From NCBI RefSeq assembly GCF_006402735.1, contig NZ_CP017174.1, forward strand, positions 8,970,001 to 9,034,000: a stretch of DNA of 64,000 nucleotides, in the 5' to 3' direction. The position numbers and the translations under genes are program-made. The stretch's first letter is position 1. Each line of letters starts with the position of its first letter. The notes beneath the pieces were generated by a model. The model was not told where the DNA came from and searched no databases. It saw only the letters and a list, made by a program, of their open reading frames with translations. This document shows positions 7,975 to 18,289 of this stretch, one piece after another. Origin of the DNA: Myxococcus xanthus. Its GTDB lineage: Bacteria; Myxococcota; Myxococcia; Myxococcales; Myxococcaceae.

Positions 7975-8323
7975 GGCGTCTGGCGGCAGCGAAGCACCCG
8001 AAAGCGGACGGAATCAAGCAGCGGGCGACTTCCTTCCCTCAGACACCGCCAGGGCCTTGGACGGAAACTCGCCCTCCGACAGTGCGCCCGCCGCGTACCC
8101 GTCGGGCAGGGTGGGTGTTCAGGAGAGCGGCGAATGCCGGGTGCGTGCGTGAAGGCAACCCCGACTTGGGCCGCGATTCCGCCGCTCAACACATGCGGTG
8201 TGAACCGCCGCACCTCAGGCAGGGGGGCGCCCCCCAGTCCGTTGCCACGCTTTCGCGAAATGCGCTCCCTGGTGGATGCGCGCCCGGTGTCTCCGCCGGG
8301 CGCCGTTCGAGAAGGAGCGGCTC
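7975..8323. other. 349-bp divergent intergenic region
   Basis: Lies between the kinase and protease start codons. No RNA gene, repeat or convincing small gene was seen. The sequence CGAGAAGGAGCGGCTC just before 8324 holds the protease Shine-Dalgarno (AAGGAG). Confidence 0.5.
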
Positions 8324-10057
8324 ATGAAGCGGTGGGGACTCATGGGGCTGTTGGTACTCGCGGCATGTGGGCCGGACGACTCCTCGGACAAGGGAGCCCA
8401 GAGCCAGGTCTGCCCGAACATCATCGCGGGCTCCCTGTCCGAACCCGTGGAGACACGGCACGTCCAGGCCCCCCTGACGGATGACGACGGCCGGCAGCGG
8501 GTCATCATCCGTTATCGGAATCAGGGGGTGATGGCCACCGCCCGCGTGCATCAGGTGGGTGGACAGGTGACAACCACCTTCCGCTCCACGCCCGCGGTGG
8601 CGGCGCGCATGTCGCTCCAGGAACAGCGAGCGCTCCTGGCCGAAGACCCGACAGTGGAGAGCATCGAGCTGGACCAGGAGTGGCGCGCCCTGGCCCCCGC
8701 CACCGTGCCGATTCATCCCGTCCTGGCCTCGGTGGCGCGGGGCGCCACGCCACGCGAGTTCACCCCCGGGCTGCGCAAGGTCCAGGCGCACGAGGTGTGG
8801 GACGTGGACGGGGACGGACTGCCGGACCCGGACCGGCCCACTGGCGCGGGCGTGCGGCTGTGTGTCATCGACAGCGGCCTGGATTTGGAGCACCCGGAGC
8901 TGCGCGACGCGGTCGTCGCCGGCCGCGACCTGCTGGAGAACGATGACGACCCCTCCGACTTCAGCAGCGGCCACGGCTGGGGCACCGGCCACGGCACACA
9001 CGTGGCGGGCATCATCGCGGCGCGGCCAGGCCACGGCGGGCGCGGCTCACCCCAGCTGCCGGACACCGGGGTGATGGGTGTGGCACCGGGCGTGGAGTTG
9101 GTCATCGCCCGGGTGCTGGACATCCACGGCCTCACGCACATGAGCTTCGTCCTGGCGGCGGTGGAGTACTGCGCGGAGCAGGGCGCCAAGGTCATCTCCC
9201 TGTCGCTGGGCGGCGGCGTGCCCTCCAAGACGACGTTCGAGGTCTTCGAGGCGGCCCACGCGCAGGGCATCCTGGTGGTGGCCGCGTCGGGCAACAGCAA
9301 CGCCCAGCGGGTGGACTACCCCGCGTCGGACCCGCACGTGCTGGCGGTGGGCGCGGTGGACGCCCTGGACCAGCGGGCCACCTTCTCCTCCGGCGGAAGC
9401 CAGCTGGCGCTGGTGGCCCCGGGCGTGGACGTGCTGTCCACCTTCCCGCGCGGACAGGGCGCGTTCTCCACGGTGGACGTGCGGGACACCCAGCCGCTGT
9501 CGCGCTCACTGCTGTATGCCCCCATCGAGAACAAGTGGGGCAAGCTGGTGGACTGCGGGGGCGGCGCGACGCTGGACTCGTGCCAGGGCAGCACGTGCAA
9601 CGGCTTCGTCGCGTACGTGCGGCACGGCGAGGTGCCCACCGACATGGCCATGGTCAACGTGATGAAGCAGGGCGCGCGCGCCGTCATCTTCGGCAACTCG
9701 AGCTGGGAGGGCGGCGTGGACATCCTCGCCATGCCTCGGCGAGGGCAGTGGGTGCCCGCCGTCACCATCACCCAGGCGGGGGGCACCGTGCTGCACCGGA
9801 TGCTGGGAGAGCTGGCCCGCATCAGCATGAGCCCGGCGGACTACGCCTATATGTCCGGCACCTCCATGGCCACGCCCTACGTGAGCGGCGTGGCCGCGCT
9901 GCTCTTCAGCGCCCGTCCCTCCGCCACGCCGGACCAGGTCAAACACGCCCTGTTGTCCTCGGCGAAGGACCTGGGGCCTTCCGGCCATGACGAGGACTTT
10001 GGCCATGGGCTGGTGCAGGCCCGCGGCGCGCTGGAGGTCCTCACCCAACTGCCCTGA
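8324..10057 (+). CDS. subtilisin-family (S8) serine protease lipoprotein with PA domain
   Basis: 577 residues from the ATG at 8324, which follows AAGGAG. The N-terminus is a lipoprotein signal with lipobox LAAC near residue 16, so the enzyme is probably anchored in the outer membrane. The triad is complete: Asp in LCVIDSGLD (about 181), His in GHGTHVAG (about 226) and Ser in SGTSMATP (about 512). A protease-associated domain is inserted between the His and Ser segments (about 390-490), as in large plant-type subtilases and lactocepins. The region before residue 150 looks like an inhibitor-type propeptide. Likely an extracellular protease in predation or nutrient acquisition (inference). Confidence 0.93.
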   Translation: MKRWGLMGLLVLAACGPDDSSDKGAQSQVCPNIIAGSLSEPVETRHVQAPLTDDDGRQRVIIRYRNQGVMATARVHQVGGQVTTTFRSTPAVAARMSLQEQRALLAEDPTVESIELDQEWRALAPATVPIHPVLASVARGATPREFTPGLRKVQAHEVWDVDGDGLPDPDRPTGAGVRLCVIDSGLDLEHPELRDAVVAGRDLLENDDDPSDFSSGHGWGTGHGTHVAGIIAARPGHGGRGSPQLPDTGVMGVAPGVELVIARVLDIHGLTHMSFVLAAVEYCAEQGAKVISLSLGGGVPSKTTFEVFEAAHAQGILVVAASGNSNAQRVDYPASDPHVLAVGAVDALDQRATFSSGGSQLALVAPGVDVLSTFPRGQGAFSTVDVRDTQPLSRSLLYAPIENKWGKLVDCGGGATLDSCQGSTCNGFVAYVRHGEVPTDMAMVNVMKQGARAVIFGNSSWEGGVDILAMPRRGQWVPAVTITQAGGTVLHRMLGELARISMSPADYAYMSGTSMATPYVSGVAALLFSARPSATPDQVKHALLSSAKDLGPSGHDEDFGHGLVQARGALEVLTQLP

Positions 10058-12371: not shown

Positions 12372-13535
12372 ATGAATCCGTACCGCTTGCGCGCCGTGAC
12401 GCTCGCCCTGGCCCTGGGCGGGTCGGGCATGGCGTGTGAATCCGAAGAGCCGTTCCCCAACCTCGACGAGTTGGACCAGCTCCGCAGCCTGCACAGCCTG
12501 GGGCGGCAGCCGCCGAAGGACAGCACCAACCGGATGGACGGGCTCGCTCGCGCCGAGGCGCTGGGCGACGTGCTGTTCCACGACAGCGGCCTGTCACGCT
12601 GCGGCACGGTGTCCTGCGCGAGCTGCCATGGCGGCGAGGGCCTGACGGTGCCCACCGCCAAGGCGAAGGGCTGCGACGGGCACCTGTCCGAGCGCAATCC
12701 CCCCACCCTGCTGAACGTGGCCTACAACCGCTGGTTCATGTGGGACGGACGGGCGGACCGGCTCTGGAGCCAGGCCATCCTGCCGCTGCTCAACCCGGTG
12801 GAGATGAACACGGACGCGCAGGTGGTGCGCGCCCGGCTCACCGCGGTGGAGTCGTACACCACGGAGTACCAGGCCCTCTTCGGCAAGGCGCCCGCGGACG
12901 AGACGGACCCGGCGCTGCTGGCCAACGTGGGCAAGGTGATGGCGGCCTACCAGCGGACGCTGGTGCGCATCGACGCGCCCTTCGACGCGGACGTGCGGCG
13001 CTTCATCACGGCGGCGGAGGCCGGCCAGGCGGATGCGGACCCGGCGTACCTGGGGCTGAAGACGTTCCTGCGCAAGGGCCAGTGCATCGTCTGCCACAAG
13101 GGGCCGGCGCTCACCGACGACCTGTTCCACAACATCGGCGTGCAGGACAGCAGCCCGGGCGCGGGAGGGCAGTGGAGCGTGCTGACGCCGCTGCTGGACT
13201 GGGAGTTCAACGCCGCCAGCCGCTACAGCGACGCGCCCACCGGCACCATCGCGGCGCGGCTCCAGACGCTGCGCACCCAGGCGGACCGGGTGACGCTGGA
13301 GGGCGCGTTCCGCACGCCGTCGCTGCGCAACGTGGCCCTGACGGCGCCGTACATGCACACCGGCGCCCAGGCCACGCTGGAGGAGGTCATCGACTTCTAC
13401 AACGAGGGCGGCGATGCGGCCGGCAGCTTCGTGGGTCAGAAGACGGTGACCATCGTGCCGCTGGAGCTGACGAACGAGGAGAAGCGCGCGCTGGTGACGC
13501 TGCTCCAGTCCATGACGGGCACATCGCACCACTGA
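12372..13535 (+). CDS. di-haem cytochrome c peroxidase / MauG-like protein
   Basis: 387 residues from the ATG at 12372. Signal peptide ending in SGMAC, probably a lipoprotein. Two c-type haem sites are visible: CASCH in the N-terminal half (about residue 80) and CIVCH (about 240). MWDGRADRLWSQA and APYMHTGAQATLEEVIDFYNEGG are family motifs of bacterial di-haem peroxidases (CCP/MauG). The protein should act in the periplasm, reducing peroxide or oxidising a protein partner. Length is normal. It probably has its own promoter, behind the hairpin at 12216. Confidence 0.92.
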   Translation: MNPYRLRAVTLALALGGSGMACESEEPFPNLDELDQLRSLHSLGRQPPKDSTNRMDGLARAEALGDVLFHDSGLSRCGTVSCASCHGGEGLTVPTAKAKGCDGHLSERNPPTLLNVAYNRWFMWDGRADRLWSQAILPLLNPVEMNTDAQVVRARLTAVESYTTEYQALFGKAPADETDPALLANVGKVMAAYQRTLVRIDAPFDADVRRFITAAEAGQADADPAYLGLKTFLRKGQCIVCHKGPALTDDLFHNIGVQDSSPGAGGQWSVLTPLLDWEFNAASRYSDAPTGTIAARLQTLRTQADRVTLEGAFRTPSLRNVALTAPYMHTGAQATLEEVIDFYNEGGDAAGSFVGQKTVTIVPLELTNEEKRALVTLLQSMTGTSHH

Positions 13536-13595
13536 CGGTGACGCGGGGCCCCGGCACCTTTTCACACGGGAAATGTCCCAGTTGTCCCGGCCCCC

Positions 13596-14126
13596 GTGTC
13601 CAAGGTGGCGAAGATGCCGCCAGGGTTGAGCGCCAGGGAGCTCCAGGACCTGTACGACCGGTATGCCCCTGGCATGTACCGGAGGGCCTTCGCCTTGCTT
13701 CAGCGGGAGGCAGACGCCTGGGACGCGGTGCAGGAGTCCTGCATCCGCGTCCTCCAATCCGCCGCCGCATTCCGGCGGGAGGCCCGGCCGATGACGTTCA
13801 TCTACCGGGTGACGACCAACGTCTGCCTCAACATGCTCCGCACCCGGGCCCTGCGGGATGTCGCCCTGGAGGATGCCGGAAGCGAAGGCGCTGTGGACGC
13901 GCTCGCCGCCACCGAGTGCCGCGACTTCCTGATGAAGCTGGCGCGCGAGTTGGACGAGCGGGCCCTCACGGTGGCGACGCTGCACTACCTGGACGGGATG
14001 TCCCAGGAGGAGATTGCCCAGGCCCTGGGGCTCTCGCGGAAGACCATCGTCCGCGACGTCCAGCGCATTGGCGCCCTGGCCCGCGCGTTGGGCGAGCCCG
14101 AGGGGATTCGAAGAGGTGCTGGATGA
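13596..14126 (+). CDS. ECF-type RNA polymerase sigma factor
   Basis: 176 residues from GTG 13596; an ATG at 13614 is an alternative. Region 2 is seen in LYDRYAPGMYRRAFALLQ..AWDAVQES and FIYRVTTNVCLN, and region 4 in LTVATLHYLDGMSQEEIAQALGLSRKTIVRDVQR, a clear helix-turn-helix. No extra domains. The stop overlaps the start of the next gene (ATGA, 14123-14126), coupling it to a membrane anti-sigma factor, so its activity should be set by that partner. Confidence 0.92.
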   Translation: MSKVAKMPPGLSARELQDLYDRYAPGMYRRAFALLQREADAWDAVQESCIRVLQSAAAFRREARPMTFIYRVTTNVCLNMLRTRALRDVALEDAGSEGAVDALAATECRDFLMKLARELDERALTVATLHYLDGMSQEEIAQALGLSRKTIVRDVQRIGALARALGEPEGIRRGAG

Positions 14127-14887
14127 GTGAACACCTGTCGGACCTCGTCTTGGACGAGGTGGTCGCGGGCGGCGCACAGCCGCCACACCTGACGCACTGC
14201 GCCACCTGCCGTGCGCGGCTGGAGCAACTGCGGACGCACGCGGAGGAGGTTCGGACCCGGGCGCACTTCTCCCGCGTCCGGGCCCACGTCCTGTCCGAGG
14301 CGGCGGCCCTCCCTCAGGAGCGCGCCACGCCGTGGTTCGCCCGGTGGATGCTCGTCCCCATCCTGGCCACGCTGGCGACGGTGGTGGTCGTCCGAGGCTC
14401 GATGACGGAGGTCCCCGAGACCACTCCCGCCGGCCCCGAGACGCCGCCTCCCCTCCTGGGCATGCGGGTGAAGGGACCTCCCCACGTAGAGCTGCTCCGG
14501 CTGAAGGACGGCGCGGTGAATCCCCTGCTCCAGGAGGGCGACGAGGTGGCGCTCCGACTCAGGAGCGGAGGCCAGCGCTATGCGCTGGTCGTCGTCATGG
14601 ACGGCGGGAAACAGGTGGAGGCACTCTGGCCACAAGCGGGCCTGCAGAGCGGCGAGTTGGCCACCGCTCAGCCCGCCCCGTTGTTCCAGGTCACCCAGGG
14701 GGATTTCGTGGTGCACGCGCTGTATTCGGAGACACCGCTGCGGCTCGACACGGTTCGGGACTGGTTGAGCACGCTGCGTCCGGAGTGCCGCGCCGCGCCG
14801 ATGTCCGCGGCCTGTCTGTCACTCACCAGCACCCCGCCGGGCGTGGCGCATGCGGCCGTGTCGCTCCAGGTAGAGGCCCGTCCATGA
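14123..14887 (+). CDS. transmembrane anti-sigma factor with ZAS motif and DUF4384-like domain
   Basis: 254 residues. An N-terminal zinc anti-sigma motif Hx3CxxC is visible as HLTHCATC (about residues 23-30). A single helix near 75-90 (VPILATLATVVVV) follows. The outer part (about 115-225) resembles DUF4384: a beta domain with EGDEVALRLRSGGQRYALVVVMD and LWPQAGLQSGELA. It is coupled to the sigma factor upstream by an ATGA overlap and to the caspase gene downstream by another (14884-14887). The arrangement implies that the sigma factor is held at the membrane and that the periplasmic domain, possibly with the caspase, controls its release. The ZAS motif is seen; the mechanism is inferred. Confidence 0.8.
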   Translation: MSEHLSDLVLDEVVAGGAQPPHLTHCATCRARLEQLRTHAEEVRTRAHFSRVRAHVLSEAAALPQERATPWFARWMLVPILATLATVVVVRGSMTEVPETTPAGPETPPPLLGMRVKGPPHVELLRLKDGAVNPLLQEGDEVALRLRSGGQRYALVVVMDGGKQVEALWPQAGLQSGELATAQPAPLFQVTQGDFVVHALYSETPLRLDTVRDWLSTLRPECRAAPMSAACLSLTSTPPGVAHAAVSLQVEARP

Positions 14888-16416
14888 CGCTCGCACTGCT
14901 CCTGGCGGCGGTGGTGGCGGCGCAACCCACGGCGGCGGACGCGGATGGAAATCCGCGCCGGTTCGCCCTGGCGGTGGGCAACAACCGGGGCTCCAGCGCG
15001 GACGCGGTGCTGCGTTACGCGGAGCGCGACGCGCGCACGGTGATGGACGTGTTGTACGAGGTGGGCGGCGTGCGGCGGGACGACGCAGTGCTCGTCCTGG
15101 GCCATGACGCGGACACGGTGCGCCAGGCGGTGGCCCGCTTCGAGCGCCACCTCCAAACACAGGCACGGAAGGGCGACCAGCTCTTCGTCTACGTCTCCAG
15201 CCACGCGGACGCGGGCGAGCTGCACCTGTCCGGCACGAACCTGCCCCTGCACGAGCTGGTGCGCTTCATCGAGCGCGCGCCCGTGAGCGTCGCGCTCCTC
15301 GTGGTGGACTCGTGTCAGTCCGGTGAGGCGGTGCGACTCAAGGGGCTGAAGCCCATCCCCGGCGTCCTGGTCAGCGTGGAGCGGCCGGAGCTGGCGGGAC
15401 GGGTCATCATCACCGCCTCCGCCGCGGATGAAGCCGCGCAGGAGTCGGACGCGCTCGGAGGCTCCGTCTTCACGCACCACCTGGTCGCGGCGCTGCGAGG
15501 AGCAGCGGACGTCTCCGGGGATGGTCGCGTCACGCTCGCGGAGGCCTATACCTACTCCTACGCGCGGACGGTGGAGTCCTCGCTGATGTCCCGCGCGGGC
15601 GCGCAGCACCCCAGCTTCCACTTCGACCTCCAGGGAAAGGGAGACCTGGTCCTCTCCTCCCCCGCCCTGGCCACGTCGCTGTTGACGCTCGCCATCGACG
15701 AGCCCGGAGACTGGACCGTGTTCACGCTGGCGGGAGAGCCCTTCCTGGGCAACCTGCGCAAGGGCGCGGGCGCGGCCACGCTCGCACTCCCGGCGGGTGG
15801 CTACATCGTCACCACCCGCGGCGAACACTCCGCGATGACGGCGCGCGTGCAGGTGCCCGACGCCGGGCGCGCCCAGCTCACACGGGCCCAGCTCCGCCCT
15901 CAGCAGTTGGAGGTGAACGCGCTCAAGGGCGAGGCGTCTCCGGCGTGGCGGGTGCATGTGGGGCCCAGCATCGGCAAGCCGCTCGTCCCATCCTTCGGCG
16001 CCATGGTGGGTGGCACCGCCGCGATCCACTACCAATGGACCGCGCCCTGGGCGAACCTGCTGACCGCTGGGGTGGACGTGCGGCATGGGCGGCACCCTTC
16101 CGGCAACCTCCGGCAGAACGACCACACGCTGCGGCTGGGCGTGGGACATGACGCACGCGTCTGGCGGAACCTGCGGCTTCACGGCGCGGTGGAGGTCGGC
16201 GCCACCCTGTCCCAGCAGTGGCAGCCCAGCAATGGGGAGAAGGCGCTCGCCCTGCAGCCCACCGTGGGCGCAGTGGGAGGTGCGTGGCTCCCTGTGTACG
16301 GAGCCTTCGGGATGTCGCTGCTCGTGAACGCGGGACACACCTGGGTGCGTGAGGAGGCGGGCACCGCGTCCGCGCTGTCGCTTGGGGGCAGTCTCGGAAT
16401 CGGCTTCATGCGCTGA
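14884..16416 (+). CDS. exported caspase-family (C14) protease with C-terminal beta domain
   Basis: 510 residues starting within the preceding stop (ATGA). Signal peptide MTLALLLAAVVAAQ. The caspase-like fold spans about 25-240: AVGNNRG start, catalytic His in YVSSHADAG (about 107) and catalytic Cys in VVDSCQSG (about 144). DVSGDGRVTLAEA is an EF-hand-like loop common in this family. Residues 260-340 look like a PEGA-type beta segment (LALPAGGYIVTTRG). The last 170 residues alternate like an outer-membrane barrel and end SLGIGFMR. Third gene of the sigma/anti-sigma operon. An exported caspase-like protein beside an anti-sigma factor suggests regulated proteolysis or envelope stress signalling; the target is unknown. 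Confidence 0.85.
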   Translation: MTLALLLAAVVAAQPTAADADGNPRRFALAVGNNRGSSADAVLRYAERDARTVMDVLYEVGGVRRDDAVLVLGHDADTVRQAVARFERHLQTQARKGDQLFVYVSSHADAGELHLSGTNLPLHELVRFIERAPVSVALLVVDSCQSGEAVRLKGLKPIPGVLVSVERPELAGRVIITASAADEAAQESDALGGSVFTHHLVAALRGAADVSGDGRVTLAEAYTYSYARTVESSLMSRAGAQHPSFHFDLQGKGDLVLSSPALATSLLTLAIDEPGDWTVFTLAGEPFLGNLRKGAGAATLALPAGGYIVTTRGEHSAMTARVQVPDAGRAQLTRAQLRPQQLEVNALKGEASPAWRVHVGPSIGKPLVPSFGAMVGGTAAIHYQWTAPWANLLTAGVDVRHGRHPSGNLRQNDHTLRLGVGHDARVWRNLRLHGAVEVGATLSQQWQPSNGEKALALQPTVGAVGGAWLPVYGAFGMSLLVNAGHTWVREEAGTASALSLGGSLGIGFMR

Positions 16417-16480
16417 GTCCCAACTCAGAGGCTTCGCGTGTCCAAGGCATGACTCGCGAAAATCCTCCGAGAGGTTTCTC

Positions 16481-18289
16481 ATGCCCCCCCGCAGCACTCG
16501 CGTCCGCTGGGCGATCCCGTTGCTCTACCTGGCCCTGGGAACCGCCGCTTGTGACACCCTGAAGTCAGAGCCCAAACCTGGCCAGCCTCCGCCCATTGGC
16601 GAAGAGGAACCGCCTCCCGAGCTGCGCGTCACGGTGCGGACCGAAGGGCCCGAATTCTGCCGGGAAGGACAGTGGACGCTCTCCGTCACCGTGGAAGGCG
16701 GCACGCCAGAGCGCGTGGAGCTCCTCACGAACGAGCAGGCGCCCATGACACTGGAGGCGCCGTACCGGCACGTCATCGACTGCGCCACGCACGCCGAGGG
16801 CCGCGTCTCGTTCCTGGCGAGAGCCGTGGGCGAGGAACAGAACTTCGAGGCGGAAGAGGCTTCCGTGGTGGTGGACCGCACGGCGCCCACCATCGTCTCC
16901 CGTCGCCCGCTCCTCAGCCACCCGTCGGTGAGCGCTCCACTGGCGTTCGTCTTCTCGGAGCCGCTGCTCCCAGGCTCGATTCAAGCCTCGCCCACCCAAC
17001 TGCGCGACCAGGACGGATTCTCCGTCGCCCATCAAGCGGTCCTCAGTGAGGACGGAACGGTCCTTGAGTTGGTGCCGTCGTCGCCGCTCCGCCCGCCCGT
17101 CACGCTCCATGCGGAGCTGCTCCAGCGGACACTGACCGACCGGGCTGGAAACCTGCTCGAACCCAACCTGACAGTCTACACCCGCACCCACAGCGCCACC
17201 TACTGGCCGTTCAGCCGCGTCACCGAGCATGAGGGCCCGCTCAACACCTACTATCCCGTGTCCCTCGCACTCGGAGGTGTCTTTCCCAGGACGATGCCCG
17301 TCGTCGGATTTGCCAATCTTTACTCACCGGAATCGGACGAGCCATCCGTCGCGCGGTGGGATGGCCATACATGGCAGCAACTCCCTCCGCTCCGAGCGGC
17401 GACTGAACGGACTCGGCCCGCCCAGAATCTTCAGGTTGCCGCGCACGGCGAATCCATCGTCGCGACCTGGCTCGAGCGGGATGAAGAAACCGGGTTCGAC
17501 CATATCCATGTGGTGCGCTACGTCGGGACGGACTGGGAACGCGTGGGGATGCCCCACGCCGTTGAATCCGACTCCACCCAGGTCAAGATGACGTTGGGCG
17601 AGTTTGGAAGGCCCGTCCTCGCAGTGGAGCGGCTCATCGACTTTCTCGAGACCGAGTTGCGCGTCATCCGTTGGACAGGCACGGAGTGGTTGGCCTTGGG
17701 GGACGCGCTCGGCGAGAACCCGGAGCGATTCAGCTCTTCGCAGCACGCAGCCATCGTCGCTGACTCGAAGGTGGTCGTGAGCTGGGTAGAGCGATCCGTC
17801 AGCGGCGACACCCTCAACCTCCACGTCCGCGTCTTTGAGGACGGAAGCTGGTCTCCCGTGGGCGAGCCCCTCCCCATCACGGAAGGCACACTCGTGGAGC
17901 GAGTCGAGCTCGCGCTTCGAGACTACGACCGCGTCGTCATCGCCTGGAGCGAGCGTCACACCAATGCAAACGTCAGCACCCTCCGGCTCACGTCCGCGGC
18001 CCTGGACTCCTGGCGAGCCGAGTGGGCCCCTATCGACCAAGTCGAGGTCTTGAGCAGAGTCAGCACCCATGACTCGCTCAGGCTGGTCGTCGATCGCGAC
18101 AACGAGCCCTGGTTGGCCTGGAGCGAGCACACGCCGGCTTCTGACACCAAGAGCTACTACCGCAAGCGCCGCGCCACCGGCTGGGAGCCCAAGCAAATCA
18201 TTTCAGGAGAGACGTTGTCAGGGTTCCTGCTTGATGGGAACGCATTCCCCTGGGCCTTGTCGGGCGGCGCCGTGGTTCGCCCACAGTAA
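16481..18289 (+). CDS. large lipoprotein with Ig-like and propeller-like regions
   Basis: 602 residues from the ATG at 16481. Lipobox TAAC near residue 24, then a Pro/Glu tether. Residues 45-130 resemble an Ig-like (Big) domain ending in VVVDRTAPTIV. Residues 130-220 resemble an SbsA/Big_5-type Ig domain (PLAFVFSEPLLPGSI). The remaining 370 residues repeat Trp-containing blades (WDGHTWQQLPP, RWTGTEWLALGD, FEDGSWSPVGEPL), as in fungal-lectin-like or sialidase-like propellers. It lies 64 bp after the caspase gene and may be cotranscribed. Function unknown; surface binding is plausible. Confidence 0.75.
   Translation: MPPRSTRVRWAIPLLYLALGTAACDTLKSEPKPGQPPPIGEEEPPPELRVTVRTEGPEFCREGQWTLSVTVEGGTPERVELLTNEQAPMTLEAPYRHVIDCATHAEGRVSFLARAVGEEQNFEAEEASVVVDRTAPTIVSRRPLLSHPSVSAPLAFVFSEPLLPGSIQASPTQLRDQDGFSVAHQAVLSEDGTVLELVPSSPLRPPVTLHAELLQRTLTDRAGNLLEPNLTVYTRTHSATYWPFSRVTEHEGPLNTYYPVSLALGGVFPRTMPVVGFANLYSPESDEPSVARWDGHTWQQLPPLRAATERTRPAQNLQVAAHGESIVATWLERDEETGFDHIHVVRYVGTDWERVGMPHAVESDSTQVKMTLGEFGRPVLAVERLIDFLETELRVIRWTGTEWLALGDALGENPERFSSSQHAAIVADSKVVVSWVERSVSGDTLNLHVRVFEDGSWSPVGEPLPITEGTLVERVELALRDYDRVVIAWSERHTNANVSTLRLTSAALDSWRAEWAPIDQVEVLSRVSTHDSLRLVVDRDNEPWLAWSEHTPASDTKSYYRKRRATGWEPKQIISGETLSGFLLDGNAFPWALSGGAVVRPQ

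Follow-up and report, generated by a model that had tools for sequence, protein, structure and literature searches.

Bacterial caspases are plentiful in myxobacteria, where their targets are mostly unknown and where discussion of them usually turns on cell death. The subject here is one such caspase of Myxococcus xanthus, encoded in a stretch of 64,000 nucleotides (positions 8,970,001 to 9,034,000 of contig NZ_CP017174.1, assembly GCF_006402735.1; below, the window) of a 9.32-Mb genome that forms one contig. Its gene is the last of an operon that also encodes an extracytoplasmic function (ECF) sigma factor and a zinc-binding anti-sigma factor (ZAS). From sequence comparison, we consider it somewhat probable that the caspase acts as the site-1 protease of this anti-sigma factor in an envelope signalling switch.

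Association of metacaspases with sigma factors has been known since a 2012 survey, in which four of the five metacaspases of M. xanthus DK 1622 lie in operons with sigma factors and a metacaspase/sigma-70 association is also found in Anaeromyxobacter, Haliangium, Sorangium, Ralstonia and Fibrobacter (PMC3501461, in excerpt). The present operon shows the same genomic association; the anti-sigma factor, cut sites, barrel and promoters are not discussed in the excerpted part of that survey. ECF54 sigma factor genes also adjoin genes of proteases with caspase-like domains, with CHAT, subtilase and carboxypeptidase neighbours, but these sigma factors are described as working without an anti-sigma factor (PMC8999054, in excerpt). 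In the craspase system (Cas7-11/Csx29, Csx30 and CASP-sigma), a caspase-fold peptidase cleaves the inhibitor of an ECF sigma factor (PMC10028731, in excerpt). That enzyme is a cytoplasmic TPR-CHAT protein triggered by a clustered regularly interspaced short palindromic repeat (CRISPR) RNA, whereas here a PF00656 caspase with predicted export carries an outer-membrane barrel. No CHAT or TPR family is among the Pfam matches of this caspase or of a set of 20 caspases, so that the operon is not of the craspase (type III-E) kind.

Two envelope systems are also similar. With Sigma-E/RseA/DegS/RseP the operon would share a membrane anti-sigma factor, an outer cut close to the membrane and a freed ECF sigma factor transcribing its own operon (excerpts of PMC8103513). 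The difference is that the site-1 protease would here be a C14 caspase from the same operon, fused to an outer-membrane barrel, and that the regulon looks local. With FecI-FecR-FecA and FoxI-FoxR-FoxA it shares a sigma factor, an inner-membrane anti-sigma factor and an outer-membrane barrel protein whose N-terminal domain lies in the periplasm; in the Fox system this signalling domain is proteolytically cleaved (PMC11637429, in excerpt). Here, however, the periplasmic domain is a caspase, the barrel is eight-stranded rather than a TonB-dependent receptor, and the outer domain of the anti-sigma factor is DUF4384-like. FecR, STN and TonB-receptor families are absent from the Pfam matches of the three proteins, of 33 anti-sigma factors and of 20 caspases, which sets the operon apart from the FecIRA type.

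A preliminary description of this DNA held that a caspase-gated sigma pathway would be new. This stands for the envelope-spanning form only, since metacaspase operons (PMC3501461) and a pairing of caspase fold and ECF sigma factor (PMC10028731) appear in excerpts of earlier work. In the open-access literature, no description was found of a caspase cutting a membrane anti-sigma factor or fused to an outer-membrane barrel, and nothing on the shared motif or the local regulon described below. Thus, the sigma/metacaspase association itself was already known, and the barrel anchor, the shared motif and the local regulon are the new parts with respect to that literature. If the proposal is true, a large group of bacterial caspases would be proteases of signalling pathways, having a defined substrate and a defined cut site as well as a regulon that is short and readable, and a transcriptional reporter would make their function testable. 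Sigma-factor signalling would also gain a type of site-1 protease, and a layout spanning the envelope, that are both new to it.

The three genes and their conservation

13614..14126, + strand: ECF sigma factor gene (Pfam Sigma70_r2 and r4; in-frame ATG kept in 11 close orthologues)
14123..14887, + strand: ZAS anti-sigma gene, 254 amino acids (zinc-binding N-terminus, one transmembrane helix, DUF4384-like outer domain)
14186..14209, + strand: ZAS motif HxxxCxxC, residues 22-29, conserved in relatives
14884..16416, + strand: C14 caspase, predicted to be exported, with C-terminal outer-membrane barrel, 510 amino acids (PF00656; model and PDB fold matches)
15202..15204, + strand: catalytic His107, conserved in 34/34 relatives
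15313..15315, + strand: catalytic Cys144, conserved in 34/34 relatives
15943..16410, + strand: predicted eight-stranded outer-membrane barrel, residues 354-509 (DSSP of the model; Foldseek)

The genes follow in the order sigma, anti-sigma, caspase, and both junctions are 4-nt ATGA overlaps, as first described. Among relatives, the sigma and anti-sigma genes overlap at 32 of 33 loci and the anti-sigma and caspase genes at 26 of 34. Sigma regions 2 and 4 are present in the first protein (Pfam Sigma70_r2, 1.9e-13, and r4_2, 4e-8, over the cut-off; TIGR02937, 1.5e-21). The gene was correctly recognized, but its start had been placed at the GTG at 13596. Because this codon falls within CGTGTC (13595-13600), the -10 box of the promoter that serves the operon itself, and an in-frame ATG at 13614 is present in 11 close orthologues, translation probably begins at 13614 and gives a protein of 170 amino acids.

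The second protein, first described as a ZAS anti-sigma factor, carries HxxxCxxC, one transmembrane helix and a beta domain. H22 is conserved in 34/34 relatives, and C26 and C29 in 33/34 each. In its structural model, residues at about 70-92 form a long helix, which was assigned to the membrane; a low-confidence stretch (92-114) and then the beta domain follow. The naming of the outer domain as DUF4384-like rests on relatives: the window protein has no match to DUF4384 (PF14326), and 11 of 33 aligned relatives match it (best 9e-7). A PDB fold search with the anti-sigma model as query gave no match below E 0.02.

The caspase fold of the third protein, with intact His and Cys, was also recovered. 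It matches PF00656 at 1.2e-8, a PDB sequence search with the caspase profile matched metacaspases in the N-terminal part only, and the best PDB folds include caspases and a metacaspase, so that fold and dyad place it in C14. The catalytic Cys, located by motif search in three caspase types, is C in every one of their 118, 54 and 39 sequences. Proteolysis after Lys or Arg by this enzyme is putative. Metacaspases cut after K/R, and their processing or self-inhibition runs through a K/R in the p20-p10 linker (PMC9622860, in excerpt). The AlphaFold2 model (mean predicted local distance difference test score 80) contains the caspase fold at 25-248, a beta-sandwich at 266-340 and eight long strands at 354-509. 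Its low-confidence stretches are 11-22, 146-170 (directly past the catalytic Cys) and 343-350 (directly before the barrel). By Foldseek, the caspase part resembles caspases and legumain, and OmpA (1.1e-6), Ail (1.2e-6), OmpX (6e-6) and NspA are among the best matches (E about 1e-6 to 1e-5 for these barrel proteins); judged from the aligned lengths, they correspond to the C-terminal part. The tail that had been called barrel-like is therefore predicted by the model to be an OmpA/OmpX-like eight-stranded outer-membrane barrel.

Conservation of the trio in Myxococcota, proposed as a check in the preliminary description, which named its lack as a refutation, was examined in several ways. Of 145 genomes in the order, 81 contain the anti-sigma factor, and a profile built on 33 of its relatives has matches in 159 of 195 across the phylum. 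All three genes are present at 30/30 loci selected by the anti-sigma factor (L010-L039). At 20 more distant loci, sigma and anti-sigma genes occur in 20/20 and the caspase gene lies directly downstream in 17; the exceptions are L122 and L132, without a caspase nearby, and L126, with one only elsewhere and on the other strand. Among 80 caspase-selected GTDB loci, six of which end early on the upstream side, 75 have the anti-sigma gene, 67 the sigma gene and 66 both. Two further caspase types were distinguished, type B (27/30 with sigma and anti-sigma genes) and type C; in a mixed B/C set picked for diversity, 26 of 40 have both. The window's genome has nine caspase places, two of which are halves of one gene, and profiles find the full trio at five of its caspase loci, anti-sigma and caspase at a sixth, and sigma and caspase at a seventh. 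Judged by these comparisons, the trio is real and conserved across Myxococcota.

Basic-glycine sites and the proposed switch

14471..14476, + strand: proposed cleavage site K117-G118 of the anti-sigma factor, directly outside the inner membrane (K/R in 211/211 pairs at the alignment column)
15340..15345, + strand: caspase loop site K153-G154 (Cys+9), proposed autoprocessing (K/R in 211/211 pairs)
15925..15930, + strand: K348-G349 of the linker that precedes the barrel, proposed as the site of self-release (K/R in 206/206; low-confidence linker 343-350)

The evidence for the anti-sigma factor as substrate comes from a basic residue followed by Gly that recurs at these three sites, all in or bordering low-confidence linkers of the models. 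From 257 caspase/anti-sigma neighbour pairs, 213 were unique and 211 scorable, since two lack a letter at the column. Not counted as pairs were 22 caspases for which no anti-sigma factor was detected, and two fragments. A first rule, scoring the first [KR]G after the transmembrane helix, mis-scored some type-A proteins with VRG or VPRG at the end of this helix, and the alignment column was used instead. The caspase/anti-sigma combinations are K/K in 125 pairs, R/R in 81, R/K in four and K/R in one, that is, agreement in 206/211. The anti-sigma site is followed by G in 203 pairs, by S in seven and by A in one. In the anchor linker, about 200 residues past the Cys, all 206 caspases with a letter there have K/R, the same as at Cys+9 in 192. 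Where type-B caspases have K instead of R, the anti-sigma residue is K in 8/8 and the linker residue K in 5/7 with a letter. In the four R/K pairs, the linker matches the anti-sigma factor in L324 and L337 and the caspase loop in L307 and L350. No conserved [KR]G column was found in the sigma factor. In the outer part of the anti-sigma factor, the site is the only column with K/R in at least 95% of sequences. That a basic residue is invariant here, within a flexible stretch that otherwise varies, counts for more than the covariation.

In the proposed switch, the sigma factor would be held at the inner membrane by the anti-sigma factor at rest, and the exported caspase would be tethered to the outer membrane via its barrel. 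A signal would activate the caspase, which would cut after K153 in its own loop and after K348 in its barrel linker and so be freed into the periplasm. Self-release would explain how a protease anchored in the outer membrane gets to a target at the inner one, and the FoxA signalling domain offers a precedent by being cleaved (PMC11637429, in excerpt). The caspase would then cut the anti-sigma factor after K117, in the short stretch just outside the transmembrane helix, ordinary intramembrane and cytoplasmic proteases would clear the stub, and, as the sequences suggest, two copies of one promoter would let the freed sigma factor transcribe both its own operon and the gene for the surface lipoprotein next to it. 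The fuller picture, of a self-releasing outer-membrane caspase that relays a signal across the whole envelope by cutting one basic-Gly motif in turn in loop, barrel linker and anti-sigma factor, is offered tentatively, as a possibility. Conservation of the trio, the intact dyad, the predicted barrel, the three conserved basic-Gly sites and the conserved promoters were computed, and we infer the steps from signal to cleavage. The caspase-gated pathway first suggested is in this way partly supported, since separate evidence from the sequences makes the anti-sigma factor a candidate substrate.

Several observations weigh against this proposal. On a tree of 96 representatives, built with the loop columns excluded, there are two switches of the caspase residue and four of the anti-sigma residue. 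The deep switch, at the split between types, coincides in both; the second caspase switch falls within a clade of eight members (support 0.998) in which the anti-sigma factors had changed before it. Because only two switch events underlie the K/R agreement, covariation alone is weak and the agreement only suggestive, and it fails in 5/211 pairs. R205-G206, a further basic-Gly pair, is conserved in 33 type-A caspases at a predicted helix end, so not all conserved basic-Gly pairs are cut sites. In a crude control on 13 zinc-finger membrane proteins of this genome, one of them a family member, some [KR][GS] past the transmembrane helix occurs in five of the 12 that are unrelated; the bare motif is thus common, and its fixed position is not accounted for by this control. 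The barrel comes from a single model made from 33 sequences, and type-B caspases such as L071 seem, by eye, to end in transmembrane helices. Finally, the KG motif is retained in anti-sigma factors without an adjacent caspase (L111, L122 and L132) and could therefore be structural, or be served by a caspase elsewhere.

This retention favours another explanation, that the caspase or barrel is a non-proteolytic transducer which binds the DUF4384-like domain as FecA-type domains bind FecR-type anti-sigma factors, the KG being structural or a contact. The outer-membrane barrel in third place fits it, and the gene order fecI-fecR-fecA is the same as that of the trio. In addition, the Fox transducer domain shields its anti-sigma factor from proteolysis and is itself cleaved (excerpts of PMC11637429). 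However, the His/Cys dyad is invariant and the same motif occurs in the caspase itself, both in its loop and in the linker to its anchor, and we regard a purely binding role as improbable.

Feedback by the last gene of an operon is common, and the sequence evidence yields cut sites but not the direction of their effect. The caspase might accordingly silence the pathway, degrading or maturing the outer domain and so keeping the anti-sigma factor on, in which case its removal would activate the sigma factor. A cut of the outer part near the membrane, however, normally begins the destruction of an anti-sigma factor, as in RseA/DegS (PMC8103513, in excerpt), and silencing is given very little credence here.

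Promoters and the adjoining lipoprotein gene

13574..13600, + strand: predicted ECF promoter TGTCCCA-N14-CGTGTC of the sigma operon (conserved blocks; autoregulation)
16416..16442, + strand: second promoter copy AGTCCCA-N14-CGTGTC, overlapping the caspase stop
16481..18289, + strand: predicted target gene, a 602-amino-acid lipoprotein with immunoglobulin-like domain (lipobox TAAC; Big_5, 5e-6)

The TGTCCC and CGTGTC blocks are identical in 11/11 close orthologues, with fixed spacing in otherwise diverged DNA. In more distant relatives, similar boxes precede an ATG located further downstream. When GT-rich variants are allowed, the pattern lies 5' of the sigma gene at 24 of 33 loci, against 0.005 expected per shuffled set. 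In 599 kb around 33 trios there are 50 matches (one with the reversed-pattern control), 25 of them before the sigma gene, 16 within 200 nt past the caspase gene, four further downstream on the same strand and five elsewhere. In the whole genome to which the window belongs, the stricter pattern KKTCCCA-N14-CGTGTC matches four times (control 0), at this operon, at the promoter of a second trio, at the start of the gene 3' of the second trio's caspase gene, and in a terminator-like hairpin past a lon-like gene. This last match, a relaxed one at 4.84 Mb that by eye is an intrinsic-terminator hairpin, was treated as chance. A similar pattern gave 40 matches in ten related genomes (controls 3), 25 of which were placed at trio loci by coordinates. 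Among 17 downstream products examined, 16 satisfy the lipobox rule. From these patterns, the regulon looks local, consisting of the operon itself and the adjoining lipoprotein gene. The lipoprotein was also considered as a caspase substrate and is disfavoured because the window copy has no KG or RG. At two loci, where a second lipoprotein gene of this family follows in tandem, a third promoter copy precedes it (L054:13428-13453 and L044:13349-13374).

In another explanation, the caspase is the output of the pathway rather than its trigger. In such a scheme, the caspase induced by the sigma factor would be exported and act on other proteins, as in developmental lysis, and ordinary site-1 proteases would cut the anti-sigma factor. 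Cotranscription would indeed raise the caspase whenever the sigma factor is active, and the 2012 survey that noted the operons proposed a role in cell death (PMC3501461, in excerpt). However, the adjacent predicted target is a surface lipoprotein, and it would be left unexplained why the basic-Gly site is the only invariant basic position in the outer part of the anti-sigma factor and agrees so widely with the caspase loop. A caspase that serves only as output is thus judged rather unlikely.

Related loci and neighbouring genes

Besides the barrel, other anchors may occur among sigma-linked caspases. One in the window's genome, at about 6254.6-6256.2 kb (L069:8613-10175), combines a lipoprotein-like signal, LLACLAAC, with a barrel-like tail, which offers an alternative anchor. 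In the tentative picture of a relay across the envelope, barrel, lipoprotein and transmembrane-anchored versions (by eye) would report on different envelope routes.

A paralogous caspase gene at about 6173.2-6175.5 kb (L068:8721-11005), behind its own sigma/anti-sigma pair, is split into two halves by an insertion that by eye encodes IS66-type transposase proteins. A sigma/anti-sigma pair at 278918-279577 (L111) has no caspase within its 1.5-kb flanks, and a caspase gene at 983306-984337 (L067) has no sigma gene nearby. The proteins of both loci resemble those of L066, and the two may be one trio split apart. Anti-sigma-like proteins without HxxxCxxC are encoded directly 5' of type-B caspase genes at L165, L166 and L168. 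Records titled Comamonas sp. KCTC 72670 are probably mislabelled or contaminated, since their caspase loci (L245 and L246) look myxobacterial.

In the window, a gene for an exported subtilisin-like protease (8276-10057, by eye) lies a few kb 5' of the trio. The haem-peroxidase-like gene that ends at 13535 adjoins the trio only in the closest relatives and was placed outside the system.

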